Shown piece by piece: positions 10,699-54,185 of a DNA stretch of 64,000 nucleotides. The notes beneath the pieces were generated by a model, which had not been told where the DNA came from, searched no databases, and saw only the letters and a list, made by a program, of their open reading frames with translations. This stretch comes from Pseudoscleropodium purum (Eukaryota; Streptophyta; Bryopsida; Hypnales; Brachytheciaceae). Position 1 is the first letter of the stretch; every line of letters begins with the position of its first letter. The stretch covers positions 1,426,001 to 1,490,000 of the forward strand of contig OZ017804.1 in NCBI GenBank assembly GCA_963969395.1, read 5' to 3'. The position numbers and the translations under genes were made by a program.

Positions 10699-10911
10699 GG
10701 TGGAGTGACTTTTCATTTCTTCTCACTTCAATTCTCTTTGAGTGCCAAGTTGGATGTGCTTCTATTGTTTTATGTGCTAGTTGCTCCTACAGGGTAGAGG
10801 GTTGGGGTCCTCAATCTTTTGTTACTGGTTTACGGTTGATGCCATCACTTTTGACTATCACATGAGATTTTTTTATTCACTTTAATTGCTTATTGAATCC
10901 AATTGACAATC

Positions 10912-29093: not shown

Positions 29094-31949
29094 CTAATCA
29101 TCTTCATGCATGGTTGCATAACCACTATCTCCAGCAATGTAGGCATCTATAGATTGCTGGATTATGCTAATTTGTGCCTTCGGAATTTTGATTCGAGGAT
29201 CAGAAGTCCCTGCTCTCACACGCGGCTTCCAAGCAGTCATTATACAATCAGTATGCGTCCAACTTGGACAAATAGCTTTATCCTCGCACCATAAATTTCC
29301 TTGCTTTAACTTCCACCCAGCATATGTTTCCTCGTCAATATGTTGAAAAGATGTAGGCGTCCAATACTGCAGTTGGATAGAATTTATATGTCCAGGATCC
29401 GGAGTAGGATTCGTGATTGCTCAAGCAAGCCAAAATGGACAAAGATCACCATCAGCAGGCCGTACTACAACAAAATAACCCGCAAAGACGTCACGACCAA
29501 TACGAAATGAAGGTTGTGGACGGTCACGCCTACGACCAACGAAAGGAGCATCTTCAGCAAATTCTTCACGCACTGTGCCATCATCTAGATATTGGTCTTC
29601 TTCCTCATTCGAAATCATTGAATTTGGCTAGAATCCATCTCGTAAACTCTCTCGCTGGTAAAGCGGATCTTCTAGAGCGCTTCTAACACCTTGCCAATAT
29701 TTCATCACCGGCTCATTTTTCCTTCGAAACTCTCCAGACAAATCTTGATTAGCCATTGTTCCCCAAAATGCAATATATCCATCTAACCCCTTACACACTT
29801 CATCAAAACAACGCATTAGTTGTGGAGCTAGAGGTGCAGGACTCCCCCTTGGAACTCTAGGGCGCCCATCAGAAGTCTCCTTCCACAAACGAATTCCACC
29901 ACCTTCCTTTGGCAACCAATCGCTGTCTGTACAAAGAATTTTGTATTGCATCAAAGGCCATCCATTGGTATCTTTGTAAAATTTAAATTGTTGAGCTTGT
30001 GAATGGCCTTGAAGAAAATCATCGCTTGTATGTAGGTACCCCTCCACAAATCCTTTAAAATTTGGAACTTCTTCAATAAGATGAGGAATCACAGGTTGCG
30101 TTTCACAATCCATGAAGGATTTCATCAACCTTGGAAGTGTTGGATAGTCATTTGTCTTCAACTTTGTGCTCCAACGACCAAATAGAGCATCAATGTCTTC
30201 GTGAGTGTGCCCGACAATGAGGAAATTAATGTAAATTTCACGAAAAACGGCTTTGAATACAAGAAGAGAGCAAAAGGCAAAAACCCAACGATTCTTGTTG
30301 TCACCAGAAGCATTGTCAAGTTGAAGAGTCAATGTTGGAGGTAGACATTGAGGGTGGACTACTTCTTCAGGGCGAGGAGGTAAAGATTCTTCACAAATCT
30401 CAAAACCCTCTAGCACCGCTTTCGACAATTCATGAATTGGATCATTTGTGGCAAACAACTCACGTGATGAGAACTTTGGTTCAGCTTCTAAGTCTCGTAA
30501 TAATTTTGCAATGGATCCTACAGTATGATTAGAATCTTTTGGAAAGATGTCCAACCCATAGTGCCAATATCGCACATCTCCATGACCATGAGCAATCATA
30601 CCTATAACAGCAATGGGCATCTTCATAAATGAATCAATGGCCTTGCTTTTATGAGAAAAATGAGGAGAAGCAGTCTTTGAATGATCCATCTTGTCATGGA
30701 TGATGGTCAGAACCTTATCAGGGTGCTTCTCAGACATCATGCAATTTGCATAGTACAACTCTCTATGTGCTTGTTGCTCGGCAAGATGCATCTTCAGCTT
30801 CTTTGTCCATACTTCTTGAGCCCGCGAGCGTGGAGTACAAGCACTCTTCAACTGTTTCAATCTATCGCACTCACCATAACGTGCAAAACTATCACCACGA
30901 GCTTTTGGAGCATATTCTGGAAATGATGAACATCGAATGTTACTCAAACCACTGGTTGATATATGTTGCAATTGGAATGCTGAATTCACAATATTAATCT
31001 CTAGCAAGATGTCCCTCCAACGAAAAGCAAATGGCAAAATCATAGATGGAACTTTCTCCCCCGACGCAAGTGTACGAGATTTATGTGGCATGTGGTCAAC
31101 ACTGTTTTCAAGAAGCAATCGAAGTGTAGCTGTTCCTTGCAAGGTATGTGATCGGGGCTTCTTCAACCCAAGATTACCGTGATGCTCTGCTTTCTCATCA
31201 TTCTTTGACTTCTCCTTGTATTTATAGAAGGTAGCCCTTGAAACTCCATGGATTGTGCACCATGCAGTAGGACAAACTTCATGAGCAGCCAATGTTATCA
31301 TATCCTTCCCATTTGCATCACAGTGCATTTGCTTGTGCACGTCAAGAAGACGCGATTTTCGCCAATATACTCCACCCTCTACATGAATCTGAGACTGAAT
31401 GGCCTGAATTTGCCCACGTGGAAATGGTTGCAAGCAATTCTTTGCACAACAAGTCTTGGAAGACACTTCTGCAATTGCTTGAGGGGTGAGGAGGGCTTCT
31501 TTCTTTGGAAGGCTCCTCGGCTCTTGCCTCTCCCGAGCGCTCTCATAGGTACGAACTCCAACCCGAACTCGCCGCCTTGATGCATTAACTGCAGCTTTAA
31601 AGATAGAGGTTTGATCATGGTCATACAAGCTGGCTCCATTCAAATATACCCTTGAAATTGGCCAAGAACGCATTGACCACATCCAAGAAGATGGAACTTC
31701 AGTCTCACACAAAGATTCTGCAATTTGTATTGCGACTCTATCGTCACCAAGAGGCTTTCCATCCATGTCAATGACGAGGTCGGCGTCTACGCTATGACAA
31801 ATTCCTTTGGCCACCTCCACCCCATATTCACTTTAAAGAATAACACACTTTATATACCAAGTAGTGCGAGGGATACCCTCGCATGGTGCAACTCCAGGAG
31901 GCAATACTGGCACTGACACTGCGAACTCATTTGGTATAGAAGTGTCCAT
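29094..31949 (-). pseudogene. DUF7869-type transposase-like gene (951 codons, three premature stops)
   Basis: ATG at 31949 (MDTSIPNEFAVSV) lies right after a splice-acceptor-like TTGTTGTGTAG, so a 5' UTR intron is likely. The frame runs to TAG at 29094-29096 with internal stops TAA (31833-31835), TAG (29628-29630) and TGA (29421-29423). The N-terminal part has a Cys-rich segment (TCCAKNCLQPFPRGQ) and a helix-turn-helix-like VSRATFYKY. The core has IIHDKMDHS (about residue 415), LQLDNASGDNKNRWVFAF (about 546) and VGHTHEDIDALFGRWS (about 581), the signature of DUF7869 proteins. Spaced acidic residues in these blocks suggest an RNase-H-like catalytic core; that is inference. The C-terminus has Trp-rich YWTPTSFQ and YAGWKLKQGNLW segments. 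It is divergent to the ParB/methyltransferase-like gene and preceded by six palindromes. Confidence 0.65.
31865..31883. repeat. Everted half-site palindrome inside the DUF7869-type gene
   Basis: TGCGAGGGATACCCTCGCA has 8-base complementary arms around ATA. The arms resemble half-sites of the main palindrome (CGAGGATA and TATCCTCG) arranged outward. It lies in coding sequence (PCEGIPR) just downstream of the ATG. Confidence 0.5.
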
Positions 31950-31990
31950 TCTACACAACAATGAAGACAAATTAGATACAAGAAAAGATT

Positions 31991-32688
31991 ATCCTCGACT
32001 CGAGGATGTTTTTAAACACAAAACTCATAATATTCACTACATTCAGTGATTCAATTAATTAACAAAAGATATTGATTATTACACATTTTCCATTACAAAC
32101 AAAATAGAGTATTCGCTCTGTCAACAGAGGAACTTCACCGGACATAGTAAAATCTGTTTGGGAGCATCAAGACTTCTGATGCACACTACAATTATGTGCA
32201 TACCTCACTGTTAGTAATAAAGACAATTCTTTATTTATGAATAATAAAACTACCCTCGACTCGAGGATATTTGTCATTTGTCTGAACATTTTTAGAAATC
32301 AGAAATTTCATCTTTCCCCTTCTCCACGATAACTATGATTTCCTAATATTTCTAACATGTCAAATACATACAATTACCCTCGAGTCGAGGATAATGGGAC
32401 AAGGAGATTCGTAAATTCTAACTTCTTAACTTTACAAAGGGGGTTTCGTAATTTCTTCACCTACTGATAGTCACTACGCATCCACACGGACGTGGATACA
32501 ATCAACTAATGATATCCTCGAATCGAGGATACTTGAAATATAATCAAGTTCGTAAACCTCATTACTCTTTTCTTCATATTTCATATTCAATTACCTTTTA
32601 TTGATTCAGACTATCCTCGACTCGAGGATAGACTTTGACGGATACTTCCAATGCACCGTATTCATTTCATTATCCTCGACTCGAGGTT
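31991..32688. repeat. Palindrome cluster 1: six TATCCTCGANTCGAGGATA sites
   Basis: 17-bp cores (ATCCTCGANTCGAGGAT): 31991-32007 (perfect), 32252-32268 (one change), 32376-32392 (one change, centre G), 32514-32530 (perfect, centre A), 32613-32629 (perfect), 32672-32688 (one change). Spacing is irregular, 59 to 261 bp. All lie in the presumed 5' UTR intron or leader of the DUF7869-type gene, none in its coding frame. Confidence 0.9.
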
Positions 32689-32690
32689 AG

Positions 32691-33670
32691 GTGATTTCAC
32701 TGAATAGGTTCATCATGTTCCGTAAAAAGCGGAGGTTTGATCTCTTCATCAAGTCCGTCCATTCACAGAAGTGGGATCAAACTAGAATACTAGCTACGGA
32801 GCAATCACCAAGTGCAGAAATCATACGATCAACCGACTACAAAGATACAAAAAATACAATGCAATCACTCATATCCGAAATCAAGAAACCAAATGACTAT
32901 AACAATTACAATGAATACAAAGCACTAAAGAATGAGATAAACAAAAAGAAACCAAACCTATAACTACGAGACAGAATGTGCAGAATGAAAGAACAACAGA
33001 ATGATGATCACTTGTCTCAGGGGAAAAGAACATGGTGCATCAGCCTTACATAAATTCCGAATTGTTTGAACTCCACAGCCTCTACGGAACCCACAAAACT
33101 TTGAACAAAGGCAAAAACAAGGTCGCCGCTGAAAGTAAAATCCGCAGTCTGCACAACGAAATTCCACTACTTCTGAACAATCCTACACTTTGAATCTAAC
33201 AACAAGAACGTGCGCAATCAAACTTCCACACATCAAAAATGCATACCAGAGTTCCAATGCACGAATTCAAAGAAGAGTAGCAAAATAATGAAAGAGAAAA
33301 CATCTTCTCAGCAAGGGAGAAGGCGCGGAGAGTGAGCAGCGGGAAAAAATAGGTGCGAACGTCAATTGCCATGTTTAGGACGGCAAGCACTTTCGATTGA
33401 TGCCAAAGTTCAGGAACGAGATAGCTGTAAAACTATTTGTCAACTAAAATAAGGCCTGCAACATCATGGCCAAAAATCCGCTGCGTCTACAGTTTCGATA
33501 TTCTACATTCTAAAAAGGGTGTGTCTGCATTAAACGTCCGAGGTTAACATCTACAAAAAGAAGTGCAAAGTCAATGAGCAGACGCACATGCTAGTTTTCC
33601 GCCACGCCACCCGCCATCCGCTTGGCCACGTGGCAGTTTTGCGCGAGTTTTCAAGGTTCAGATGGGGCTG
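32691..33670 (-). other. Presumed 5' leader and intron of the DUF7869-type gene
   Basis: No convincing coding exon. The short plus-strand frame at 32691-32963 is Lys/Asn-rich and unsupported. The 33600-33660 part is less AT-rich and contains CCACGTGGCAG (33626-33636), shared with the leader of the divergent gene at 38587-38597. Confidence 0.4.
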
Positions 33671-33674
33671 GCGG

Positions 33675-33703
33675 TTTAGGGTTTAGGGTTTTGACAATTT
33701 ATA
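33675..33703 (-). promoter_or_regulatory. Candidate promoter of the DUF7869-type gene: TATA motif and telo-box
   Basis: On the minus strand TATAAAT (33697-33703) is followed by AAACCCTAAACCC (33675-33688), a double telo-box often found near plant transcription starts. Transcription would start near 33670 and cross the palindrome cluster before the ATG at 31949. Position-based inference. Confidence 0.4.
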
Positions 33704-33708
33704 TTATC

Positions 33709-34020
33709 TCTACAACCTATAGCTTTTCTTTTATATTCACTTGTATTATCAGAAATTAGTTCAAAAAGAGGGGTTTCTTCATGGTCATTGTTGTTTCTTT
33801 GATTTTCACTTGTAATATTGTAAATTAATCCTAAAGGCTTGGTTTTTTTATGGTCATTGTTGTTTTGTATTGACTCTTTATCATTGTTTTTGTTAGGAGG
33901 GTTGTTGTTTTGATTGCTCTCTGATTTGTCATGCTTTTCAGGCTTCATCCCTTTTTGATTCATTTTCTTTTTCTTTGAACGATTATTTCCCATCATGAGA
34001 ATATAGGGCTCACAAAACAA
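33709..34020 (-). CDS. Small Asn/Lys-rich open frame, unknown, doubtful
   Basis: The minus-strand frame starts MFCEPYILMMGNNRSKKKK near 34020. It is dominated by Asn, Lys and Asp, with two related segments (IYNITSENQRNNNDHEE and ISDNTSEYKRK). Two imperfect repeats give it some structure, but low-complexity AT-rich DNA can produce such a frame by chance. No family is recognised. Confidence 0.25.
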
Positions 34021-36240: not shown

Positions 36241-36246
36241 CTTTAA

Positions 36247-36910
36247 TCACATTTTTTGATTTTGTGACTCACTACAATCATATTTTGCTGTTACAAAACA
36301 ATCATTTTCTTGTAGTGTTTGTTGTAAGACCACTTTGGATAGATGCCATCTATGAGCATGTAGTACCAATTGTAGGTGCACCCATTGACCACAAACTCCA
36401 TGTCTCTTGCTTCTCGTATAAGCATGTTGGAAACCAATGGTGAACAATCCAAAACATTCAAATCATTATTAGACCCTAGCAAGCAAAAGAAGGCATGCTA
36501 GATATGTAAATTTTTACTAGCAATTGCTTCAAGAATGATTGATTTCTTGCTAGACCTATCTCCAAAGTCTCCTTGCCAAGCAACATTACAATTTTTCCAC
36601 TCATAATGCATGCAATCAAGCAATAGTTTGTTAATTGCTTCTCAAAATTTGCTCATATAGATTGATGCAAGTATTGCCCTTCAAATTCTAGCCTACTTGC
36701 CAAGCTAAACCACTTAAAAGACTCTATTGTAGTACTCTTGCTAGTACTACAATATTCATTTGTTGCATTAGCATAAAATCTATAACAAAGCATACCTATG
36801 GCCACTTTGATTTTCTGATGAAGGGATAATCTTAGTAAACTACATGCGTCCAATATTTTAACAAAGTAGCTATTTTGAAGACAAATCCTCTTCATGATAG
36901 TCAAGAGCAA
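36247..36910 (-). pseudogene. PIF/Harbinger transposase remnant (plant transposon protein family)
   Basis: On the minus strand, degenerate frames show the order typical of plant PIF/Harbinger transposases (PF04827 type): SLHQKIKVAIGMLCYRFYA, ATNEYCSTSKSTTIESFKWF, then DCMHYEWKNCNVAWQGDFGD, KSIILEAIASKNL, LGSNNDLNVLDCSP and VNGCTYNWYYMLIDGIYPKW. Several stops and frame changes break it. The D-C-M-H-W-K region normally holds one catalytic Asp; the region after DGIYPKW is lost. It is an old insertion inside the larger element. Confidence 0.75.
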
Positions 36911-36959
36911 TGTGTGTCACATTCAATAATGACTTCGTAGGAACTAGGACCATATATAA

Positions 36960-38440: not shown

Positions 38441-38487
38441 ATAGTATACAAGATGTCATTTGTTAGAACAACCCTCCACCAAGGCCA

Positions 38488-38668
38488 TATATAAAAACAA
38501 ACTATTATACTCCGTATCTCAATCTGACCCTGACGTGGCAGCGCGGGCAGCTTCGGCGGCGGCGGCGCCAGGCAAATGGTGGGCTTCCACGTGGCAGCAT
38601 GGGCAACTTCGTCATCGGTGGTGCGGCGGCTTCTTCGACGGAGCTGGTAATCAGGGTTTAGGGTTTTT
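38488..38668 (+). promoter_or_regulatory. Candidate promoter and leader start of the ParB/methyltransferase-like gene
   Basis: TATATAAA (38488-38495) is followed by GC-rich sequence (GGCGGCGGCGGCGCC), two GTGGCAG motifs including CCACGTGGCAG (38587-38597), and GGGTTTAGGGTTTT (about 38654-38667). The combination of TATA motif, CCACGTGGCAG and telo-type repeat mirrors that of the divergent gene. Inferred from position. Confidence 0.4.
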
Positions 38669-38740
38669 TGCAGCTTCCATCCCTGACTCCCTGCACCTGC
38701 TCCTACTGCCGCTACCACTTACGAAGTCCAGTGTTTGCAC

Positions 38741-38902
38741 GCGCGGGACCTGCGAAATTTCTGGAGTGCCACAATTTCTGGAGCGCTTTGGGAAGGCTCT
38801 CGGTGGAAGGTCGGATTGCGCGCGCGGGACCTGCGAAGTTTCTAGAGTGCCACAATTTCTGGAGCGCTCTGGGAAGGCTCTCGGTGGAAGGTCGGATTGC
38901 GC
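38741..38902 (+). repeat. Tandem duplication, 81 bp x 2
   Basis: Two adjacent copies of an 81-bp unit (start GCGCGGGACCTGCGAA, end GGTCGGATTGC) differ at a few bases. The unit is 27 codons long and lies in the presumed transcribed leader of the ParB/methyltransferase-like gene. Coding use is uncertain. Confidence 0.8.
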
Positions 38903-38949
38903 CGGTCGGAGTTCAGGTTCGTGCATACTCTGACTTGATTAGGGTTTAG

Positions 38950-40330: not shown

Positions 40331-40336
40331 TTACTT

Positions 40337-40874
40337 ATCCTCGACTTGAGGATAAAAACCTTGAGACCAAAACATCATCAAAATTTTTAATCGATTATCC
40401 TCGACTCGAGGATATCCTAGAAGACCCCTTCTTCCAGGAATTAATGAAAAATCTCAAATAATAAATCCGGAAGATCAAATTACAGAATGGAATCATCTAA
40501 TTCCACTACATAATTCTGTGTAACGACATATCTAGAACACTAGAACACAAAACGAGCAAGAAGGAAATGACTAAAAACAATTATCCTCGACTCGAGGATA
40601 AAGAGGAGCTGTCAATAATGACCCCACACAAAATCCAGAAATAGAATTTTCTATTAAAAAATAAATTGACTACACCATGTCTATTGTATTTCTATCAATC
40701 TAGAATGTCTCTGCTATATTCGTGAAGGGGAAAATCACTTAGATCGATAAAAGGTAGTATCCTCGAATCGAGGATATCATGCCTGTAATTATCACACTCG
40801 ACTGAAGTTAGTTCTAGATGTACCTAAGCCAGTACTCAGTACATAGCCATGAAAAATAACCTTGATTCGAGGAT
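40337..40874. repeat. Palindrome cluster 2: five sites before the ParB/methyltransferase-like gene
   Basis: Cores: 40337-40353 (one change), 40397-40413 (perfect), 40583-40599 (perfect), 40759-40775 (perfect, centre A), 40858-40874 (degenerate, AACCTTGATTCGAGGAT). All lie upstream of the likely splice acceptor TGTATGACAG at 40927 and the ATG at 40939. Confidence 0.9.
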
Positions 40875-42378
40875 AAAAACAGATGTAATACATTGAGCTT
40901 ACACCACGTCCTAATTGTGTATGACAGGGTCCCAGAAAATGGAAGAAAACGACCAGACCTCTACATATGACTATTCCCACATGGAGCTCCTCATTGAACC
41001 CTTCCAGAATCCTTTGGGACAAGTGCCATTCTTCGAGGAAATGGCTGAAAACTATGGGGAGCTGTGGAAGTTCAAAGACGTAGTCAATCAGTGGAACTTT
41101 GGGGTAAATCGACAGAAGAACTACGTCTTCCTCAGATACCAGCTAGAGGGAACAATCAGGTTCATGCTGTGGAACCTCAATGAGAAGGTGACTCTGATCG
41201 AGCAACACCGATCAGATTACCTTGTAATCGTTCTCCAGGAAGTAGATGGAAGTGGTCACCCCCTCCCACACGTCCATTCAATTGTTTGCAATGTTGGACT
41301 TGAGTTAGGGGGGTTCGATTTAGCAGAGTTGTTATCATACCTCATAGGGACGCACTTAGACTTCTTGGCGGATGAGTTCGAAACCAAATTCTGGTCGTGG
41401 AATCCTGTGTCCTCTACAGCCCACATCCGTCGAGTGGCTGCGATATTCCTTTCTCTTGATCGCTTTGCTCTCGAAACCTTCTCCAGAAGTCACCAGAAGC
41501 TTACAGGGAAATTAACTGAACGCGCTCCTGCTAAAGAAAAATCTGGGGCACCACCTGGGAGCGAGAGCACGAGGGCACCACGTGGGAGTGGGAGCACGAG
41601 GGCACGACCTCGATCAGAAAACCAGAAGAGGAAGGCAGCAGAGCGTACAAAAGGCGATACAAATAGTAAGCGCAAAAAGTCTAACCCAGTCGAAAAGACT
41701 CGAATAGCCGGGAGTTCAGGATCAATATTGATTGACCTCCCTGGTGCGGGGGAGCAGCCTGTACGAGAAAAGGAAGATCACGAGGAGTTTACGAAGTACC
41801 AGAAGGAGTTCTGGGATAACCATCAGAAGTGCTTTCTTTTTTATGGTAAAACTTTCGATATTTCCATTGAGAAATGCATTCTGGCGAAGGACACATACAT
41901 CGTGAGGAAGCTGGAGCGGAACATGGTTGACGTTGTCAAGAAAAAGCTTGTGGAACTTGGAGACGCAAAAACTCAAAGGCAAAAGCTGTGCCTAACTCTT
42001 GTGGATGAAAATGGCAAACTCCTGAAGAGTGCCCCAAAATCGTGGGATGACATCAAGTCTAGAGAATTCATGATCATCAACGGGCAGCACAGTGTAATGG
42101 CCTCAAAAGAGTTTCAAATTAGAGGGTGTGGAGAGAAGCGACGAAAGGAGCTCCAGACATGGAACGCAAGTATTGTATGGACTACTGATCCCGTGAAGCT
42201 GACGAATATCTCCGAGTTCTACAATAAAACCAACCACATTAACCATGCCCAGCCGACCTGGGGAAATCAGATTATCAGCTTACGCAACGTGTGGGTGGAC
42301 TTAGGGAGACCTTGCCTCCTCTCAAATGAACCAGTGAATCGCAAGAACTCATCCGTAGCCAGTTTGGCACAGTATGCG

Positions 42379-42587
42379 GTATGTCAATTCCATCTCTGGC
42401 TATCCTCGAGTCGAGGGTAATGATCATATGCCTTTTCTCATGTGTTTGATAGTTTTTAGAATAGTGCAGAACTGTGAAGTAAGACTTGGCTTAGAAGAAG
42501 TGACTTCGATTTTGTCTTTATCTCACACTCATCCTCGACTCGAGGATAATTCTTGTTGTCTAGTCTAAATTTATTTGCCTCACACAG
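42379..42587 (+). other. Intron 1 of the ParB/methyltransferase-like gene
   Basis: 209 bp, GTATGTC at the donor and TTGCCTCACACAG at the acceptor. Joining in phase 0 gives SLAQYA followed by FMCAIQKF. It contains two palindrome sites. The frames on both sides are open up to these borders. Confidence 0.75.
42402..42547. repeat. Palindrome cluster 3: two sites inside intron 1
   Basis: Cores 42402-42418 (one change, centre G) and 42531-42547 (perfect). They occupy both ends of the 209-bp intron and avoid coding sequence. Confidence 0.9.
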
Positions 42588-43930
42588 TTCATGTGTGCTA
42601 TACAGAAATTCACAACCTTGGTCCTGACACGATATCGAAACATCAATCTTGAGAAAGATGGAGCAACAATCAAAAGCACCACCGACGTGAAGAACGAGAT
42701 AAAGATTATCACCCTTCGTGATGAGATTTACAAACTCTGGGATGAATTTCTTGCAGGCTACTCCGAAGGTAGATTGATAGATCCCTTAACCAGACAAGAG
42801 TATAGGGCAGACAAGAAGTTTAACCCTAAATCATGTTCGCTAAAGAGGGAGTTCTTCAGGCATTGTCGCCATTTCACGGACAGAGATCTTATGGATTTTG
42901 CTCTGCATTTGCTACACAAGACTTCGGAGCGGACACGGCCATACCCAAAGGTCTCAGTTAGTAAAACAAGAATTCTGATTGAAGACAATCAGAACGCTGC
43001 AGATTGGGTCGACCGTCGGAAGCGGAAGAGAGTGATTCACGAAGAATTGCTCGCTGTGAAGAAGACTCTAGTCTTCAGGGACGACTCTGGAGACGTTGTC
43101 GACAAGACTTGGAAGCCGTGGAAATGGAGGCACCAGTTTTCAACAGCAACATGGGATTTCTTGCTTGCTACCACTCCAATCCCCTATTTCACAAAGTGGC
43201 TCACAAATGAAGGCAAACTAAAACGAGTAGAAGATTTCAGTGAGAAGTTTCCCGACCTTCTGCCCATGTTTCAGCGCTTCGTCAAACTCAAGTATCGTCT
43301 GAGGCAGCCATTTAGAGATGTCGACATTCGGGGATTTGAGAGAGTTGCCATGTCCGTGGTGGCGAATTCGTCATGGAAGTACAATAACGGGTATTTGGGT
43401 TTTGGAATACTCGATCTCCGCGAGGCACCCAAACAGAAGGCTAGCAAGTCAAGTACTTCTGGCGCACTTCTACCATTCCTGAACTACTTGTCTACCTACC
43501 TTGATCCCAAGTTTGACACTCCCAGTGTTTGGCTCTGGATTGTTGGGGATTCTCTAGATATGGAGACTGTATCTAACTTCATTGCGGTTAAAATGCAAGT
43601 TTACGACTCAAAGCTCTCTTGTTATATTCCGGGTAAGGCAGAGAGAATAAACAACATATCCAGCCGGGCAAGCGCGACTCAAGTGTACCTCATCTTTTTG
43701 TTCAAGAAGAATGATGCCAACGCTAAGCTCCTTGAGATTGGTGTGAAGGACGAGTATAGGACGCCGAAAGATATGGCGTACTATGATGATTCCGTGAGAA
43801 ACAATGAGGCAAAGTGGAGAATGTATCCAACGGAACTGAGGATGGAGTTCTATTTGGATATGCTGTCCACATTTGTGAGTCCGTGTGAGAACGTGTTGTG
43901 AATCTACACCGGATCCAAGTGCATGCTAGC

Positions 43931-44082
43931 TGTTGAAGATACTGAGTAGGATGCTTTGGATTGTTTGAAAGCTCCTAGTATGGGTTAACATTGGATAGGT
44001 GTTGTTTGTAGCCAAAGCAAAAACAATGTAGGATGGCCACATGTCATGCATAGGACAAGCAAGGACACGTGGAAGGAAGCAT
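43931..44082 (+). mobile_element. LTR1 5' portion
   Basis: Matches the first about 150 bp of the complete LTR1 (reverse at 54186-54641) up to ACACGTGGAAGGAAGCAT, then diverges. The U3 end with the CACGTG cluster and the TATA motif is missing here. Leader-like sequence with GATTTGAGCC/GGTCTGAATTGAG units follows to 44354. Confidence 0.7.
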
Positions 44083-44354
44083 TTAGAGCACTAGAGTGTG
44101 CATTGGAGAGATTTGAGCCATTTGAGGTCTGAATTGAGTGATTTGGAGCACGAGAGTATGCATTGGAGAGATTTTGGGCCACTTGAGGTCTGAATTGAGA
44201 GGATAGGACCATTGAGGGTCTTATTAGAAAGATTGAGGGTATTTGGGACCCTATTGAACTTGTTACAACCACAAGGGAGGGAGTTGTGCATTTTGAGGTT
44301 ACATTGAAGTGATTTGGATCACTTGGGGTTGTAGTAGAGTGGGAGGTATTCACC

Positions 44355-46823
44355 ATGGCCACTAGTGATGGAGATAGCGTGAGGGTCATTGACAAGTTCA
44401 ATGGAGAGAACTTTGGCCTATGGAAATTCAAGATGGAGATGATCTTGGCCGAGAAGGACTTATGGGAGATTGTGGAAGGCACCGAAGAAGAGCCCGCAAC
44501 CGATACGGATGTCAAAGTTAAGAAGTCCTATGAGAGGAGGGTCAAGAAGGCCTTCTCTGTCATTGCTTGCAATCTTGTGGATAGGCAACTTGCACATGTT
44601 CGCGCATGCAAAGGACCCGCAGAAGCATGGAAGGTGCTTTGCAACATCCATGAGACCAAGAGCTTGTCCAACATGCTTTTCATTCGGCGCAAGTTCTTCA
44701 CGTGCAAGATGCAAGAGAATGAAGACATGCTCGACCACATCAACAAGGTCAAGGCGCTTGCAGACCAACTCGCTTGTTTGGAGGTGCCTGTGACGGATGG
44801 AGATATTGTCATGACTTTGCTTGATAGCTTGCCATCTTCATATGAGTATCTTATCACCGCATTGGAGACAAGACCCATGGAGGAGCTCACCCTCAACTTC
44901 ATCACCGCAAGATTGATGCATGAAGTGTCCAAGAGGAAGGAGAATGAGCCCCAAGAAGGAGGGGCCGCACTCTATTCACGAATTGGACAAGGAGGAAGCT
45001 CACAACCACGCAAAGAGACATGCACGTGCTACAATTGTGGTAAGCCTGGCCACCTTGCACGGTTTTGTAGGTTGCCCAAGAGGGAGAGTGCAAACAAGGC
45101 AAGTGCCAAGGAAGTGGAGGAGGACTTTGCGTTTGCAGCCAATGATGGGTATGACAACACCGACATGTTCACATGGATCATTGACTCGGGTGCAACGCAA
45201 CATATGACTCCACATAGACAAGCTTTTCTCACTTATAAGCCTATTAGCAACCACAAGGTGTATTTGGGTGACAATGGCGTGGTGGATGCAATTGGCATGG
45301 GGTGCATCGTGGTGGAGGTGAAGGGCCAAAGGAAGACCATTCGCATCCAAGATGCGTTGCATGTGCCCAAATTGCATGCCAACTTGCTCTCGGTGAGCAA
45401 GTTGGTGTCACAAGAGCTGAAGGTGCAATTCAACAGCAAGGGTTGCGATTTGGGTGCACCCAATGGAGAGATGATTGTGACCGCACCTAAAGAGGGCAAC
45501 TTGTATCAATTGAGGTTCAAAAGTGTGAATGGCACAAGCATGGCATGTTTGGCCCAAGGAGCACTCCACCAACACTCTTTGGAGCTATGGCACAAGAGAT
45601 TGGGCCACCTCAATGAGAAGAGCGTCAAGACCCTTCAAAGCATGGTGGAAGGCATGCAAGTGCAGAAGGGCTCTTGCGATTTGAAGTGCGAGGCTTGCAT
45701 TGAAGGCAAGCAAGCAAGGCAACCGTTCCCAAGGGATGGAGGCACAAGGGCAACCAAGGTGTTGGAGATTGTGCACTCCGATGTGTGTGGCCCCATGAAG
45801 ACCACTTCCACGGGTGGTGCAAGGTATTTTTTGACCTTCATTGATGATTTTTCAAGGAAGATATGGGTGTTTATGCTCAAGTGCAAAAGTGATGTATTGG
45901 AGAGGTTTAAGGCATGGAAGGCACTTGTGGAGAATGAATCGGGGCATAAGGTGAAGGTGTTACGGTCGGACAATGGAGGGGAGTACATGTCCAAGGCCTT
46001 TGAGGCTTTTATGAGAGAACATGGCATTCAACATCAAACTTCAGCGCCTTATACTCCACAACAAAATGGTGTGGCGGAGCGTGCCAATCGCACACTTATG
46101 GAGATGGCTCGGGCCATGTTGCATGCCCAAGGCCTCACATATGATCTTTGGGCGGAGGCTATATCCAATGCGGCCTACACACGCAATAAGTGCCCCACCA
46201 ATGCAATTGCATCTATGACGCCACAACAAGCTTGGAGTGGGAAGAGGCCCAATATTGGGCACATGCGCATCTTTGGATGCGTTGCATATGCTTTAGATTT
46301 GAGTCCCAAGCGTTCCAAGCTTGATGGCAAGGGCATTAAGTGTTTGTTGGTGGGCTATTGTGAGGGCTCCAAAGCTTACAGGCTCATGTGCTTAGAGACA
46401 AAGAAGATGATCAAAAGTCGAGATGTCACATTTGTGGAAGGCAAGCAAGGGGCAAGCCATGATTTGGAGATGTGTCCAAGTGGGAGCATGGAGGAACCTA
46501 AGATTGAGGTGGACAAATCTCCAAGCATGGATGCTTTGCCCAAGGAAGATGAAGAGCATGATGACACACCACCAACGCCCAATGAGAAGACATGTCCATC
46601 TACGAGTGCGGCACCAAGTGAAGATGAAGAAGAAGATACTTCCAAGGTGTCTAGATATCCTACAAGAGAAAGGAGGCCGCTTGGAGAATGGTGGAAGAAC
46701 CACATCTTACCTCAAGAGCATGTGGAGCACATGAATGTGGCGTATGCAAGAGATCCATGCAATGTGGGAAAAGCCATGAAAAGTGCGGATGCAAGCAAGT
46801 GGGAGCAGGCCATGAAAGAAGAG
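44355..46823 (+). pseudogene. Copia-1 gag-pol, 5' two thirds (gag, protease, integrase)
   Basis: A frame without stops starts MATSDGDSVRVIDKFNGEN. In order: gag (UBN2-type, with ALETRPMEELTL), a CCHC knuckle (CYNCGKPGHLARFC), aspartic protease (WIIDSGATQHM), GAG-pre-integrase (LWHKRLGHLNE) with HHCC zinc finger, integrase core (VHSDVCGPM, FIDDFSRKIWVF, RSDNGGEY, YTPQQNGVAERANR) and the GYCEGSKAYRLM region. It stops at the codons AMKEEY, where a minus-strand LTR2 begins. Reverse transcriptase and RNase H are absent. It is a different family from Copia-2 and its remaining frame is intact, so it is relatively young. Confidence 0.9.
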
Positions 46824-47079
46824 TATTGAGATTACAATATGAGAAGGATGAAAGGCTTTACTTAGATGGTAGGATGATATCAAGGCCCATGCATGGGCTG
46901 AACATAAAAGGGAAAAGCCTTTCCCTAGTTATCCACAAACCATGTGGGATAACTAAACACCATGGGCTGCCTTTGACTACAAGCAATACCCATTAGACTC
47001 TAAGCCTAACTAAGAGGCTAATACTACTCCTAGGGCTGAATGTACATAATCTACACTAATATGTACATGTTCTTCAACA
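46824..47079 (-). mobile_element. LTR2, complete, minus strand
   Basis: Starts TATTGAGATTACAATATG and ends GTTCTTCAACA, the reverse of the 256-bp LTR2. It serves as 3' LTR of the minus-strand fragment that follows. Confidence 0.9.
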
Positions 47080-47619
47080 CTCCCACTTTGAGAGTGGTCA
47101 AAGGCTCCAAGGCCCATCTTCCCTATCAAGTTGTGGTGTTGTGGCTTCCCAAGGGCCTTGGTCAGCACATCAGCAACCATAGCTTGGGTAGGCACATACT
47201 TGAGCTCAATCACCTCAGCCTCCACTCGTTCACGAATGAAATGGTGTTGCACATCAATGTGCTTCGTACGAGAGTGGTGGGTGGGATTTTTGGCCAAAGC
47301 AATGGCCCCTTGGCTGTCACACCAAATGGGTGTGCTCCCCTCTTGAACAAGACCAACATCAGCCAAGAGTTGCCTCAACCAAATGGCCTCCTTGGTGCAT
47401 TGGCTCATGGCCATGTATTCAGCCTCCGTTGTAGAGAGAGCTATGGTGGGCTGCCTCTTGGAATTCCAAGTAATGGCACCCAATCCAAGCATAAACACGT
47501 AGCCGGTGGTGGATCTCCTATCCCCCTCATCACCCGCCCAATCCGCATCACAATACCCATGCAAAGTCACATGGGCACCTCCAAGTTGCAACTCCATGCC
47601 AAGTGTGCCTTGAAGGTAC
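47080..47619 (-). pseudogene. Copia-2 RNase H fragment, minus strand
   Basis: Encodes [45 protein letters not shown] and [13 protein letters not shown], followed by the LTR. It is cut at the GGTAC where the plus-strand LTR2 starts at 47620. The frame itself is intact. Confidence 0.85.
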
Positions 47620-47875
47620 TGTTGAAGAACATGTACATCTTAGTGTAGATTATGTACATTCAGCCCTAGGAGTAGTATTAGCCTCTTAGTTAGGCTTAGA
47701 GTCTAATGGGTATTGCTTGTAGTCAAAGGCAGCCCATGGTGTTTAGTTATCCCACATGGTTTGTGGATAACTAGGGAAAGGCTTTTCCCTTTTATGTTCA
47801 GCCCATGCATGGGCCTTGATATCATCCTACCATCTAAGTAAAGCCTTTCATCCTTCTCATATTGTAATCTCAATA
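47620..47875 (+). mobile_element. LTR2, 5' LTR of Copia-2
   Basis: 256 bp, TGTTGAAGAACATG to TAATCTCAATA. It contains the GTTTAGTTATCCCACATGG / GTGGATAACTAGG segment, a short imperfect inverted motif. Confidence 0.9.
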
Positions 47876-47889
47876 GGTTATGGGCCCAC
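47876..47889 (+). promoter_or_regulatory. Primer-binding site complementary to the initiator tRNA-Met anticodon arm
   Basis: GGTTATGGGCCCAC lies immediately after the 5' LTR. It is the reverse complement of GTGGGCCCATAACC, the anticodon stem-loop of plant initiator tRNA-Met. The usual plant Copia primer site (TGGTATCAGAGC, tRNA 3' end) is not present. The same 14-mer, in reverse, adjoins LTRs at 58094-58107 and 59707-59720. Confidence 0.75.
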
Positions 47890-48891
47890 GCACTTGGAGT
47901 TGCGTTTGAGGGAGGAATTCAAAGCATTTGGAGGAGGTCTTGGAGCTTGAAGGAGTAATCAGCCCTTTGTCACTTGTCACCTACAAACCATATGGTGTGA
48001 GTCATTTTTCAAAAACAAAAACTTTGGAGTGCATTTTTTTTAAAAAGGGGAAATTAGTTTTGGGAGCTTTTGTTGGTTGGTTTGTGAGGTTTGGAGTACA
48101 TTTTGGGTGGGACATTGCTCATGGTAGTAATCAAACCTAGAGTGGGCTGGTTGCATGCTCCTAGTTTGAGTTTGTGCTTAGAAAAGTACATTGGCAGTCT
48201 ATTGTGGCTGATTTTGCACTTAGGTGCATTGTGGATTGTAATGGTGCCAATTGCCATCTATTGAGAGTCTTTGTGAGCCTTGGAAGCATATTTGAGTTGC
48301 TTGAGGTTTTTCGCCATGCATGGAGGGCTGATTAGTGCCCTTGTGAGTGTGTGAGGCAATTCATGGACTTTGTGAACCCAAGAGGGCTGATTTGTGGCCA
48401 TGTGAGCCATTGAGGGCCAATTAGGGTGTTTGGGTGGATTGGTGATCCATTGAGGGCTGATTGGAAGACTTGAGTGCCTTAGAGTGTGGAGTCCCATATT
48501 TTTGAGGAGCATTGTGAGTTGGCTTGCTGAATTGAAGTAGCACTAGCCCATCATGTCCATGTGGTGGATTTGAGCTCTATTAGGGTCTGAATGCGTGTTG
48601 AGAGGAGGTGAGGCACTTGTGAGGAGTGTTTTGTCCTTCATAAGGTTGTGAGGATCTTGGAAGGTCCTTGGAAAGGCTGATTGTTGCCATTTCAGCCCAA
48701 TTGGCTTCCAAGGGAGTGTTTGGAGGCTGAATTGACTTGGAGACACTTAGGGTGCTGCCAACAAGTGGGAGGTGTCCTTGGAAGGGCTGATTGTTGTCGT
48801 TTCAGCCCAATTGGCTTCCAAGGGAGTGTTTGGAGGCTGAATTGACTTGGAGACCCTTTGGGTGCTGCCAACAAGTGGGAGGTCCTTCATC
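47890..48891 (+). other. Copia-2 untranslated leader with a 110-bp tandem repeat
   Basis: About 1 kb between primer site and gag, rich in GGCTGATT and CAGCCC motifs. A 110-bp unit (GGCTGATTGTTG at 48675 and 48785) is repeated in tandem directly before the gag ATG, with few differences. No coding frame. Confidence 0.7.
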
Positions 48892-51800
48892 ATGTCATCA
48901 AGTAGAGGAGAGGGCGTGCGCATCATTGACAAGTTCAATGGGGAGAACTTTGGCATGTGGAAGTTCAAGATGGAGATGATCCTTGCGGAGAAGGACTTGT
49001 GGGACGTGGTGGATGGGAGTGAGGAGCCTCCAAGTGAAGATGCGGATCCAAAGACCAAGAACGGGTTTCAGAGGAAGGAGAAGAAGGCCTTTGCCCTCAT
49101 TGCCATCAACCTTGCGGACCGGCAAATTGCACACATCCGCCATTGCAAGGGACCAGCCCAAGCGTGGACCACCCTTTGCAACATCCATGAGACCAAGAGC
49201 CTCTCCAACCTCCTATTTCTTCGCCGAAAGTTCTTCACTAACAAGATGGAAGAGGAGGAGGATTTGTTGGATCACGTCAACAAGGTCAAGGCTCTTGCGG
49301 ATGAGTTGGCTTGTTTGGATGCGCCCGTGACGGAGGGAGATGTGGTGATGACCTTGTTGGCAAGCTTGCCATCGTCTTATGAGTTCCTCATCACCGCATT
49401 GGAGACAAGGCCCAGCAAGGAGCTGACCTTGGAGTTTGTGACGGCTCGCTTGATGCATGAGGTGACCAAGCGCAAGGAGAATGAGCCCCAAGGGGAGGGA
49501 TCAGCCCTAGTCTCAAGACATGGCAAGGGAGGCAACACCAAGGCTTCCAAGGAGACAAGGACATGCTTCAAGTGTGGCAAACCAGGCCACATTGCTAGGC
49601 ATTGCAAGATCAGCCAAGACAAAGGCAAGGAGAGTGCACACCAAGCTTCCAAAGAGGAGGAAGAGGAGGATTTCGCCTTTGCAGCCAATGGAGGAGGGGA
49701 GAAGGCCAACATGTTCACTTGGATTGTGGACTCGGGAGCCACCCAACATATGACCAGCCATCGTGATGCCTTCCACACGTATCAGCCCATTTCGGGGAAG
49801 AAGATTTATTTGGGAGACAATGGCATGGTGGAGGCCCTTGGCAAGGGGGAGATCCTTGTGGAGGTGATGGTGAAGGGTTAGCCCAAGAGGATCCAAATCC
49901 ATGAGGTCCTTCATGTCCCCAAGTTGCATGCCAACTTGCTTTCGGTAAGCAAATTGTCTTTGGGAGGTTTGAAAGTGCATTTCAACATGGTGGGGTGTGT
50001 TGTGCGTTCACCAAGTGGAGTCTTGATTGCATCAGCCCCTCGTGAGGGCAACTTGTACCTCCTCCATTTCACCAAGGTGAATGGCACTTCCTTGGCGTGT
50101 GTGGCCCAAGGATCAGCCCATGAAGACCTTGTGGAGCTTTGGCATAGGAGGCTTGGGCACTTGAATGTGAAGAGCATGAAGAGCCTCCAACACATTGTGA
50201 AGGGGCTGAACCTCTCTTCTTGCAAGCATGATTGGAGTTCTATGGTGTGCAAGGGGTGCATTGAAGGCAAGCAAGCAAGGCAGCCCTTCCCCAAGGATGG
50301 GGCCACAAGGGCGAGCAAGCTATTGGAGCTTGTGCATTCCGATGTGTGCGGGCCAATGAAGACCACATCCATTGGAGGAGCAAGGTATTTTGTGACCTTC
50401 ATTGATGATTTCTCTCGTAAGGTTTGGGTGTACATGCTGAAGTGCAAGAGTGAGGTGTTTGGGCGTTTTGAGACTTGGAAGGCCCTTGTGGAGGCCCAAT
50501 CCGAGTGCAAGGTGAAGGTGCTGCAATCGGATAATGGAGGGGAGTATGTGTCCAAGGCCTTCAGGGGTACTTGAAGGCTCATGGCATTGAGCACCACACT
50601 TCAGCCCCTTACACTCCTCAACAAAACGGCGTAGCGGAGCGTGCCAATCGCACCATTGTAGAGATGGCAAGGGCCATGATTCATGGCCAAGGGCTAAAGT
50701 ATGAGCTTTGGGGGGAGGCGGTGTCCAATGCGGTTTATACAAGGAATCGGTGCCCTACGCAAGCCTTGACAAGCAAGACACCCCAAGAAGCTTGGAGTGG
50801 GATCAGACCTCATGTGTCTCACATGCGCATCTTCGGGTGCATTGCCTAGGCATTGGTTCCAAGTGCCAAGAGGACCAAGTTGGATGCCAAGGGCATCAAG
50901 TGTCTTTTCCTTGGTTATTGTGAGGGAACCAAGGCTTATAGGCTGATGTGTGTGGAGAGCAAGGCCATCATCAAGAGTCGAGATGTGACCTTCTTGGAGG
51001 ATGGAGGTGCTGATCCTAAGCTCTTGGAGATGAGCCCAAGTGGGAGTAGTGGAGGACCAGCCCAAAAGGTGGGCACAACTCCAAGAGTGCACATGGAAGA
51101 TGAAGGAGATGAAGATGAAGAAGATGAAGAGTTGGCGGAGCCCAAGAAGAAGGCGGCCACACCCCATGGGAAGAGGCCATCAACCCCTTCTCCAAGATCT
51201 TTACCAAGGGGGCAAGAGCGTCATCAGCCCTTGGAAGAGCAAGATCAGCCTTTGGAGGAGCAAGACCAGCCCTTGGAGGAGCAAGAGGAGCCACGTTATC
51301 CAACAAGGACCCGCAAGCCACTTGGAGATTGGTGGCTGAATCACATTCTTCCCCCACAAAATGAAGAACAAGCCAATGTGGCTTTCCTTGGAGATCCCTC
51401 CACACTAGGAGAGGTGTTGCGTTGTGAGGATGCAAGCAAGTGGGAGTTGGCCATGCAAGAGGAGTACAAGGCCCTCATTACCAAGGGGACATGGGAGCTT
51501 GTAGCCCTCCCTCCCAAGAGATCAAGTGTGGGTTGTAAGTGGGTTTTCTCCACCAAAAGGGATGCTTTGGGTCATGTTGTGAGGTACAAGGCAAGGCTGG
51601 TTGCTAGGGGATTCTCCCAAGTGGAGGGTGTGGATTTTAATGAGACTTTTGCTCCCGTTGCCAAGTTTAGCACCATCCGGTGTGTTGTGAGTCTTGGGGC
51701 AGCGATGGACTTGGAGATGCACCAAATGGATGTGAAGACAGCTTTTCTCAACCCCAAGCTCAAGGAGGTCATCTACATGGATCAGCCCCAAGGTTTTGTG

Positions 51801-53039
51801 CAAGAAGGCAAGGAGCACCTCAAGTGCAAGTTGAGGAAAGCCCTTCCCGGGTTGAAGCAATCGGGGAGGGCCTGGTACCAAGATATTGATGCCATGTTTG
51901 TGAGGAAGGGCTTCCTAAGAAGCCATGCTGATCACTCTTTGTACACCATGCAAAGTGGTGAGTTTTTGGTGATTGTGATCTTCTATGTGGATGATCTGAT
52001 CCTCCTTGCAAGTAGCATGCCCAAGATGCTTGAGGTGAAGGCTATGCTCAAGGAGGAGTATGAGATGACGGATCTTGGGGAGCTAAGCTATTGCCTTGGA
52101 GTGGAGTTCAAGAGGGATAGGGCTGCCCGCACCATCACCATGAGCCAACACAAGTACCTTGAAGAAATCCTCAAGCGCTTCAACATGGAGGAGTGCAAAG
52201 CCATAGGTACACCCCTTGACACTCATGTGAAGTTGCCCAAGCTCACGGATGCTGAATTTGGAGAGGTGAGGGCTGAAATGCAAGGTGTGCCTTACAAGGC
52301 AGCGGTTGGGTGCTTGTTGTATGCCATGGTAGCCACAAGGCCTGATTTGGCCTTTCCGGTGAGTGTTGTGAGTCAACACATGTCCAAGTATGGCCCAATG
52401 CATTGGGCAGCGGTGAAGAGGGTGATGAGGTACCTTCAAGGCACACTTGGCATGGAGTTGCAACTTGGAGGTGCCCATGTGACTTTGCATGGGTATTGTG
52501 ATGCGGATTGGGCGGGTGATGAGGGGGATAGGAGATCCACCACCGGCTACGTGTTTATGCTTGGATTGGGTGCCATTACTTGGAATTCCAAGAGGCAGCC
52601 CACCATAGCTCTCTCTACAACGGAGGCTGAATACATGGCCATGAGCCAATGCACCAAGGAGGCCATTTGGTTGAGGCAACTCTTGGCTGATGTTGGTCTT
52701 GTCTAAGAGGGGAGCACACCCATTTGGTGTGACAACCAAGGGGCCATTGCTTTGGCCAAAAATCCCACCCACCACTCTCGTACGAAGCACATTGATGTGC
52801 AACACCATTTCATTCGTGAACGAGTGGAGGCTGAGGTGATTGAGCTCAAGTATGTGCCTACCCAAGCTATGGTTGCTGATGTGCTGACCAAGGCCCTTGG
52901 GAAGCCACAACACCACAACTTGATAGGGAAGATGGGCCTTGGAGCCTTTGACCACTCTCAAAGTGGGAGTGTTGAAGAACATGTACATATTAGTGTAGAT
53001 TATGTACATTCAGCCCTAGGAGTAGTATTAGCCTCTTAG
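48892..53039 (+). pseudogene. Copia-2 gag-pol polyprotein (stops and frameshift)
   Basis: Starts MSSSRGEGVRIIDKFNGENF. It contains gag, a CCHC knuckle (CFKCGKPGHIARHC), protease (WIVDSGATQHM), integrase (HSDVCGPM, FIDDFSRKVWVY, QSDNGGEY, YTPQQNGVAERANR), reverse transcriptase (QMDVKTAFLNP, FYVDDLILLA, DLGELSYCLG) and RNase H ([27 protein letters not shown]). Damage: TAG at 49879-49881, a one-base deletion near 50563, TAG at 50847-50849 and TAA near 52704. The first two are shared with the minus-strand copy at 54642-57103, so this was a defective lineage that still spread. Confidence 0.9.
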
Positions 53040-53223
53040 TTAGGCTTAGAGTCTAATGGGTATTGCTTGTAGTCAAAGGCAGCCCATGGTGTTTAGTTAT
53101 CCCACAGGGTTTGTGGATAACTAGGGAAAGGCTTGTCCCTTATGTTCAGCCCATGCATGGGCCTTTATATCATCCTACCATCTAAGTAAAGCCTTTCATC
53201 CTTCTCATATTGTAATCTCAATA
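52970..53223 (+). mobile_element. LTR2, 3' LTR of Copia-2
   Basis: 254 bp. The C-terminal codons of RNase H ([18 protein letters not shown]) extend into it and end at 53037-53039. Confidence 0.9.
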
Positions 53224-53447
53224 GTCTGTACACGTGGAGGGCCGCAGGAGGATGGACCGCCATGTGGTCCATGAGGTGGCAAGAAGTGGCTTGCAAGTGG
53301 CTTTCGAAAGGACTTGCAAGACACTTGAGAGGCCACCAAGTAGTAGTATAAGAGGGGAGCCCTTGCATGGGCTCATTACCCTTTCTCACACTTGTTTGTA
53401 ATCCCCCTTCATTAGAATACATTGGCTTGGTGTTTCTTTTCTCAATA
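53224..53447 (+). mobile_element. LTR1 3' portion
   Basis: Runs from GTCTGTACACGTGGAGGGCC to TTTTCTCAATA and includes GTATAAGAGGGGAG. It matches 1-196 and the reverse of 54186-54412. Its right end defines the target duplication CTAGC. Confidence 0.85.
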
Positions 53448-53459
53448 CTAGCTGCACAG

Positions 53460-53655
53460 GTAATAGCTCCGCTGAAGTACATATATCCTCGATTCGAGGA
53501 TACTATAAGCTTATGTTGATTTTTTTATGTTCTCCACTTTGTTTTTAGTGATAACTTATATCATCCTCGACTCGAGGATGATCTGACGGAGATGATTCTA
53601 ATTGATGAAATCAGAGATAGGAGAATGTACTGATTGCCATTCCTCTCTAATGCAG
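53460..53655 (+). other. Intron 2 of the ParB/methyltransferase-like gene
   Basis: 196 bp, donor CAG/GTAATAG and acceptor CTCTCTAATGCAG. Phase 0 joining gives MLAAQ followed by MYGVFFYGIDDS, which restores a methyltransferase-like C-terminal pattern. It holds two palindromes. Confidence 0.7.
53485..53579. repeat. Palindrome cluster 4: two sites inside intron 2
   Basis: Cores 53485-53501 (perfect, centre T) and 53563-53579 (perfect, centre C). Together with cluster 3, this means each intron of the gene carries exactly two sites. Confidence 0.9.
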
Positions 53656-54185
53656 ATGTATGGTGTATTCTTCTACGGTATTGACGACAGCGTTGTCTAT
53701 AAGAGGGAGAGAGGAATGGCGAAGTTCGCTGATAGATTAGACATGAATGACTTTCTCCATTCGAATTCACCCTATCGGAATTACTTCATTTAGCCGGCAC
53801 TTCTGGCGGCTGTGGATCATGCGGCTGCATCCACATGTGAAGACGATGGCGTGGAAGATGATGGCGGCTCGGATTCAGAGCACTCTCAAGAGGCAAGTGT
53901 AGACGAAGACAGTCCTTCCATCGACGAATTTGGGACAAACAGGTCACCTAGTTCGCTTGCTCGAGAGAATATGGAAGATGTGGACATTGCGCAGGAGGAT
54001 GTTGAAATTCACCTCCTCGAGGACGGCGGGCAAGAGATGCCACGAAATAGTAGTGTGCAGGCGCCGGCACAAGATGAAGGCCTGCAAATACTAGCGGAGG
54101 CTCAGGAATGGAACTTGCAGCGTTTGGATGATCTTGCACTAGAGGCATAGAGGCAGGCAGTTTCTCGTGTGGGAGATGGAGAAAC

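Follow-up and report, generated by a model that had tools for sequence, protein, structure and literature searches.

Analysis of a 64-kb stretch of the genome of the moss Pseudoscleropodium purum (GenBank assembly GCA_963969395.1, contig OZ017804.1, positions 1,426,001 to 1,490,000; hereafter, the window) revealed a damaged copy of a terminal inverted repeat (TIR) transposon with two divergent genes, one encoding a DUF7869 protein, the probable transposase, and the other a protein that combines a ParB-like fold with a methyltransferase-like fold. An array of long palindromes surrounds these genes. Comparison across related transposon families suggests that the palindromes are probably the cognate sites of the ParB/pseudo-methyltransferase encoded by the element itself, providing a family-specific mark of self, most likely with an activating or anti-silencing outcome.

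Palindromes accompany both genes and avoid the exons

The palindrome, TATCCTCGA-N-TCGAGGATA, is present in 15 copies in the window (three or fewer mismatches to TATCCTCGANTCGAGGATA), compared with a mean of 0.01 and a maximum of 1 in 100 dinucleotide shuffles. Six of these unstranded sites are located upstream of the DUF7869 gene (31990 to 32689; positions 31990, 32251, 32375, 32513, 32612, and 32671), at about 40 to 740 bp from its inferred start, and five upstream of the ParB-like gene (40336 to 40875; positions 40336, 40396, 40582, 40758, and 40857), 45 to 585 bp from the start. The ParB-like gene contains two more in intron 1 (42401 and 42530; intron 42379 to 42587) and two in intron 2 (53484 and 53562; intron 53460 to 53655). 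This 6 + 5 + 2 + 2 layout, free of exons, had been described in an earlier note on this DNA and is confirmed here, as is the gene-linked, noncoding placement of the sites: none of the 15 site centers falls within the modeled exons of the two genes, with the exon limits set by us from open reading frames (ORFs) and tblastn, and the splice limits from GT/AG signals and environmental homologs whose ORFs stop near the same junctions, rather than from RNA. The window contains 18 perfect odd palindromes of 17 bp; a GANTC core is present in 11, of which 9 coincide with sites of the element. Genome-wide (313 Mb, 52 contigs), the exact window pattern was found at no fewer than 74 places, and its backwards-read version did not occur in the 313-Mb genome.

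Related families carry different palindromes at equivalent positions

At least 61 matches to DUF7869 were identified in the genome, mostly near 95, 67, or 50% identity to the window protein; the 67% and 50% groups are hereafter referred to as families 2 and 3, and the family of the window copy as family 1. Exon 2 of the ParB-like gene has at least 99 matches in the genome, with ten loci at 78% or more among the matches listed. The ParB-like gene is present in both family 2 and family 3, each with its own palindrome, identified by de novo repeat finding in one copy: TTATCGTTGA-N-TCAACGATAA in family 2 and TTTCAGCGCGA-N-TCGCGCTGAAA in family 3. Every palindrome type is built around GANTC, and the half-sites differ by family: the moss genome has TATCGTTGA and TCAGCGCGA, an old copy has TATCTTTGA, and contigs from elsewhere have TCAGCTCGA.

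The placement of the sites is shared among the families. Family 2 has 10 sites before the DUF7869 gene and 8, mostly 86 bp apart, before the ParB-like gene; intron 1 holds 2 more. A second copy of this family (L038) has one site on either side of exon 2. In family 3, seven sites precede the DUF7869 gene (locus L029), and the ParB-like gene has six sites upstream, one in intron 1, and two in intron 2 at one locus (L031) and five, one, and two, respectively, at another (L032); a sister of family 3 (L036) carries sites of the family-3 type at matching places. In L037, an old element on contig C49, TATCTTTGA half-sites occur: two palindromes lie in intron 1, one of less regular form follows exon 2, and two more are located further downstream, one of them of the family-1 type. 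Patterns of foreign families gave no matches, with up to two mismatches allowed, in the window, the family-2 locus, or the family-3 loci. Family-3 matches in family-1 copies were traced to a family-3 element nested in one of them (copy E, G000:C44:13405000-13434999, at 7764 to 14430), which has a 6 + 1 + 2 layout of its own, and a family-2 piece adjoining another (copy A) carries family-2 sites.

Between families 1 and 2, identity is 67% (121/180) in the N-terminal part of DUF7869 and 45 to 47% (139/308 and 69/146) in the ParB-like protein; between families 1 and 3, it is 37% (59/158) in the N-terminal part of DUF7869, with 50% over the whole protein, and 30% in the ParB-like protein. On these comparisons, the ParB-like protein seems to diverge faster than DUF7869. 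The self-recognition proposed in the earlier note is supported by a pattern in which site positions stay constant across related families while palindrome and protein change in step. In the groups at 43% and 30% identity, many of the genomic exon-2 matches are free of stops, which may point to recent activity. Contig C49 (12.7 Mb, about 4% of the genome) holds 25 of the 99 exon-2 matches listed, many with several stops, and may be a nonrecombining chromosome that gathers decayed copies.

Site positions are conserved among family-1 copies

The layout is kept in all seven other genomic copies of family 1 that were examined for site positions: all 15 positions are retained in copies A, B, D, E, and F, 14 in copy C, and 9 of 9 in fragment G. 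A lack of conservation between copies, named in the earlier note as a refuting result, was not observed. The upstream spacing at the ParB-like gene (60/186/176/99 bp) is common to the copies, with small shifts, for instance, in copy E. Departures from the consensus number 33 in 113 site instances, and 21 of the 33 are CpG transitions.

Further sites were found downstream. A weaker distal site lies about 1.1 kb beyond the intron-2 pair in copies A to G, except that in copy E, which has an insertion there, the distance is 4.4 kb, and a second distal site is located 1.5 kb further out in copies A, D, E, and F; for the window copy, the matching region lies beyond the edge of the window. Comparable distances, of about 1.1 and 2.6 kb, separate these distal sites from the intron-2 pair in family-1 copies and in the family-3 element within copy E; in copy E itself they are larger. 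Most distal sites have a GG-type core in place of GA.

The element encodes a ParB-like protein with an apparently degenerate methyltransferase domain

The protein comprises a PH-like domain, a ParB N-domain fold, a helical domain, a beta-class adenine-methyltransferase fold, and an acidic tail, the two folds coming from structure prediction. The ParB N-domain fold matches ParB, Noc, and KorB in CTP- or CDP-bound form, and the nearest fold matches of the methyltransferase half include CcrM. Both folds were thus recovered, which supports the original description of the gene as ParB/methyltransferase-like. At the sequence level, ParB_N had no matches in the genome, Pfam gave no ParB or methyltransferase match for the protein or its homologs, and a sequence search of solved structures returned weak matches only. 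Acidic tails, read by eye, are also present in family 3 and in two contigs from elsewhere, L034 and L035 (see below).

The GERR motif of ParB is needed for CTP binding, and CcrM acts on GANTC. In the place of GERR, the proteins analyzed here have a GQHS box; at this place, N389, Q391, and H392 are invariant and G390 and S393 are at least 90% conserved (23 sequences). The catalytic signature [DNS]PP[YFW] is found in none of the 64 rows of the homolog alignment; the presumed motif IV equivalent, assigned to the invariant D284 by strand order in the predicted model, has D-x-R in 58 of 62 rows. Motif I, normally GxG, reads G-x-K in 52 of the 53 rows left once 10 of the 64 that lack this motif and one more that is gapped from its fifth position are set aside. 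On these counts, the methyltransferase domain appears to be catalytically degenerate, with the DPPY and S-adenosylmethionine (SAM) motifs replaced.

Palindrome classes follow the protein tree in homologs from other organisms

Environmental assemblies contain 63 homologs of exon 2 and 22 of exon 1. Many of the homologous ORFs extend into the adjoining introns, with tails of at least seven residues in 45 of the 63 exon-2 proteins. Back-translation, which indicates that a palindrome can be encoded rather than proving its presence, yielded 21 perfect 19-bp palindromes with a GANTC core in the exon-2 tails of 16 proteins; 60 residue shuffles averaged 1.30 and never exceeded 4, and the 15 other symmetric cores gave 0 to 7. 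The exon-1 tails gave 6 palindromes versus a shuffled mean of 1.17 and a maximum of 4, in a set where the tails of P0072 and P0074 are mis-cut and include core sequence.

In a quick, midpoint-rooted protein tree, labeled with patterns written after the tails had been viewed, some of them loose, half-sites of the form TATC[C/G/T]TCGA are confined to the larger clade (17 labeled rows, including the window) and AGC/AAC-type half-sites to the other (4 labeled rows), with SH-aLRT support of 99 for the separating branches. The palindrome class follows the protein tree. The exon-2 alignment covers 51 of the 63 homologs, and P0070 (E = 4.9e-5, unrelated Pfam architecture) was excluded from all counts.

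The ParB-like gene is also encoded on two contigs, CADCWO010000243.1 (L034) and CADCWO010000269.1 (L035), each of which has TTCAGCTCGA-N-TCGAGCTGAA as its palindrome. L034 has two sites in intron 1, three in intron 2, and three downstream, and L035 has three upstream, one in each intron, and three downstream. In exon 2, identity to P0048 is 48 to 50% for these contigs and 38% for family 3, in keeping with the AGC-type half-sites of the contigs. At five loci, all 60 site centers lie outside the modeled exons; the product of the per-locus probabilities, which treats the sites as independent, is 2e-14. For L034, the count covers the ParB-like gene only, and one site (6592) falls inside a further, possibly coding open frame (6145 to 6795, 217 aa), so that the product is indicative only. 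Both contigs have been binned in a metagenome-assembled genome (MAG) of an uncultured member of the Synechococcales, a cyanobacterium; the transposon-like genes appear to carry introns, and the contigs therefore probably represent eukaryotic contamination of this public MAG. No relatives were found in the viral contigs searched, and a viral origin was accordingly dropped. Three IMG/VR viral contigs (L001 to L003) each contain a single exact 17-bp palindrome.

The transposon and its damaged copy in the window

Comparison of copies showed that the element is a TIR transposon of about 21 kb. The TIR ends, length, and target duplication were read from family-1 copies, and the right end of the window copy lies outside the window. 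In copies C and D, where both ends are visible, the left end reads AACGCCATATTCATTAAAATG and the right end, in reverse complement, AAGGTCATATTCATTAAAATG, an imperfect inverse; both copies are flanked by 4-bp target duplications (ATCC and CAAT). By comparison with these ends, the left TIR of the window copy was located at 28272 to 28292 (+ strand). The DUF7869 gene (29094 to 31949, - strand; Pfam PF25273, E = 3.2e-44) consists of a long ORF (29628 to 31832) and a 3' piece (29094 to 29420) and is broken by a stop between the long ORF and the likely first ATG (31949), the start having been placed by eye and by similarity to the start of the family-2 protein. No paper on DUF7869 was found in the open-licence literature.

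All parts of the ParB-like gene lie on the + strand. Exon 1 (40921 to 42378) encodes the PH-like N-terminal domain, a weak match, followed by a basic linker and the ParB N-domain fold with the GQHS box. The exon-1 and exon-2 homologs share the intron 1 junction. Exon 2 (42588 to 43931) encodes the helical domain and the methyltransferase fold, contains a stop (43899 to 43901), and is broken off after 43931 by a nested copia-type long terminal repeat retrotransposon (43932 to 53447, + strand; flanking duplication CTAGC(T)) that is foreign to the element; the end of the exon lies at 53454 to 53459. This insertion of about 9.5 kb contains further copia sequence, nested within it and in part duplicated and inverted. 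Exon 3, with the acidic C-terminal tail, follows intron 2 in one frame (53656 to 54149), with a stop at 53791 to 53793. Thus, the damage to the window copy comprises a stop near the DUF7869 start, stops in exons 2 and 3, and the copia insertion. An 81-bp tandem repeat, which seems to vary from copy to copy, is located in the middle of the element (38735 to 38896), and elsewhere in the window, two possibly related ORFs (13135 to 13815 and 26929 to 27804, both + strand) have RING-type zinc-finger matches under the curated cut-offs.

Proposed function of the palindromes and its alternatives

We propose that the ParB/pseudo-methyltransferase recognizes a palindrome of 19 to 21 bp centered on GANTC, the outer half-sites of which would be family-specific and coevolve with the protein. 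Binding at both promoters and within the introns of the ParB-like gene would mark the element as self; by analogy with the VANC proteins of Arabidopsis, the most likely outcome would be that both genes are kept active or that silencing marks are removed only from members of the same family. The GANTC core, together with the CcrM-like fold, may mean that the target of a former methyltransferase was retained as the center of the site. We infer that the ParB-like protein rather than DUF7869 is the reader, that its methyltransferase domain has lost activity, and that binding leads to activation or protection from silencing. The assignment of the protein as the reader follows from the joint change of palindrome and protein, the presence of sites in its own introns, and the occurrence of sites beside its gene on contigs lacking a clear DUF7869 match. 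The sites avoid the ends of the element and are found at promoters, in introns, and downstream, which makes a role in expression or chromatin control likelier than one in transposition. Indeed, among the roles considered in the earlier note, marking of the DNA for transposition is the least likely, given the altered ParB signature, the apparently dead methyltransferase, and the distance of the sites from the ends.

Several observations weigh against this proposal. Within family 1, the nucleotide diversity (pi) of the sites is 0.033 versus 0.032 overall (14 of the 15 sites covered); outside CpG, it is 0.0157 versus 0.0255, but 120 of 2,000 shifted masks were as low. Thus, purifying selection on the sites is not demonstrable within this family, with pi close to that of the flanks and the shifted-mask test unconvincing. 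The family-1 copies themselves look dead, with flat codon positions and exon-2 stops in 8 of 10 loci, and, with the sites drifting like their flanks, such recent copies are uninformative about selection, which a comparison between families can reveal. Single sites, mainly distal ones, deviate from the GANTC core, one distal site of the old element on C49 (position 4415) is of the family-1 type with one mismatch, and one side of the intron sites in family 2 has the sequence TATCCTTGA. On the protein side, neither half has a Foldseek match at E = 0.001 or better, and the nucleotide box of ParB is altered to GQHS. DUF7869 also differs between families, so covariation taken alone leaves it a possible reader, and the case for an anti-silencing role is one of analogy.

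The same protein might instead be a repressor or a copy-number control that shuts both promoters and limits its own expression, with no action on chromatin. The sites do lie close upstream of the inferred starts of both genes, and the bacterial protein KorB, to which the fold also matched, carries the title of a transcriptional repressor, but the intron and downstream sites are less expected for a plain promoter repressor, and the acidic tail points more to an activator; overall, we consider repression unlikely. The palindromes could also be sites of the DUF7869 transposase or of a transposition complex, considering that clusters are found upstream of the DUF7869 gene in families 1 to 3 and that this protein, too, diverges between families. 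However, at up to three mismatches, the first 3.7 kb from the left end (window and copies B, C, and D) and roughly the last 1.4 kb before the right end (copies C and D) are free of sites, so that subterminal transposase sites were rejected; arrays are also found at the ParB-like gene, introns included, and the sites of L034 and L035 occur without a DUF7869 match, apart from a 37-aa stretch in L034 (E = 0.006), on contigs of only 7.4 and 6.2 kb. This makes DUF7869 an improbable reader.

Loading and spreading in the manner of ParB, whereby a clamp loads at the palindromes and coats or clusters copies, would fit the match of the ParB N-domain fold to CTP- or CDP-bound ParB, Noc, and KorB and the clustering of the palindromic sites, but GQHS stands where the CTP-binding GERR would be expected; such loading, itself of low probability, could be the means by which self-marking works rather than an exclusive alternative. 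With respect to the ParB/parS-like partner system envisaged in the earlier note, the ParB N-domain fold and the palindrome array near the gene for the protein itself hold, whereas the GERR box does not. An active methyltransferase, modifying the adenine in the GANTC center as an epigenetic self-mark, would account for the beta-class fold, for the presence of the GANTC enzyme CcrM among the nearest matches, and for the GANTC center of all palindrome types, and has been suggested for the transposon Sola1-1_Ec32, discussed below. The motif counts (D-x-R at the presumed motif IV in 58 of 62 rows, [DNS]PP[YFW] in 0 of 64, and G-x-K at motif I in 52 of 53) led us to reject it as the leading idea and render it very improbable. 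Finally, shared ancestry alone would hold host transcription-factor sites or chance repeats in place within one family, but different palindromes at the same positions, beside proteins only 30 to 47% identical and also on contigs from elsewhere, together with the chance level of 0.01 in the window, strongly disfavor this explanation, which is hardly credible.

Self-marking by the ParB/pseudo-methyltransferase is accordingly the reading we retain. A more elaborate version, which we regard as conceivable and somewhat doubtful, is that of a transposon self/non-self code assembled from bacterial parts, namely a captured ParB and a dead CcrM-like methyltransferase, with a GANTC core and a drifting half-site serving as a private anti-silencing address and, possibly, ParB-type loading; families would then diversify by changing the palindrome address. 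The existence of several palindromes at equivalent positions makes the pairing of reader and site directly testable.

Comparison with known systems

In Ectocarpus, the 21.5-kb giant transposon Sola1-1_Ec32 encodes a 1104-aa ParB-like and methyltransferase protein on the strand opposite to the transposase; the protein is suggested to bind its own transposon and predicted to be an N4-methylcytosine or N6-methyladenine methyltransferase, and Iyer 2011 and Petroll 2025 are cited for green and red algae (PMC12477816). The ParB-methyltransferase architecture in giant algal transposons is therefore already published and not new. The moss element, about 21 kb long and bounded by TIRs, likewise encodes such a protein on the strand opposite to its probable transposase, but here the protein is predicted to be inactive and comes with family-specific palindromes; the comparison is by published description, and the partner gene in the moss is typed as DUF7869. 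The string "palindrom" is absent from the main text of PMC12477816, the supplements being outside the search, and the open-licence literature, again with supplements unread, yielded no report of palindromes, cognate sites, or covariation. As far as the literature searched extends, the sites, their gene-wide layout, their covariation across families and species, and the evidence for a degenerate enzyme domain are new. If the proposal is true, it would give ParB-methyltransferase proteins a concrete role in the transposons of green, red, and brown algae and would suggest that a methyltransferase turned into a sequence reader, with its old target kept at the center of the site. A 4-bp target duplication, as seen here, is documented for Sola2.

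Captured epigenetic genes are also represented by the TET/JBP dioxygenases on fungal DNA transposons, which are thought to aid escape from silencing (PMC12730594); unlike the protein described here, that factor is an enzyme, and the abstract contains no palindrome code. The ParB N-domain fold and the clustered palindromic site resemble bacterial ParB/parS and Noc/NBS, whereas the absence of a GERR box, the pseudo-methyltransferase domain, and the intron-bearing transposon gene do not, and unlike the beta-class methyltransferases RsrI, CcrM, and M.BceJIV, the moss protein apparently has its catalytic DPPY and SAM motif replaced. To our knowledge, transposons that read their own DNA by a private code are known in detail only from Arabidopsis VANC. 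These proteins, encoded by VANDAL elements, bind short, often tandemly repeated noncoding motifs that are family-specific and coevolve with them, and remove silencing (PMC5735166, PMC10398659). Compared by description, the two systems share a family-specific noncoding motif that varies between related families, and they differ in that the moss element is of the DUF7869 kind, with a 4-bp target duplication, a ParB and methyltransferase fold, and long GANTC-centered palindromes. The moss protein, apparently unrelated to VANC and with a fold that points to bacterial ancestry, seems to have arrived at this logic by convergence.

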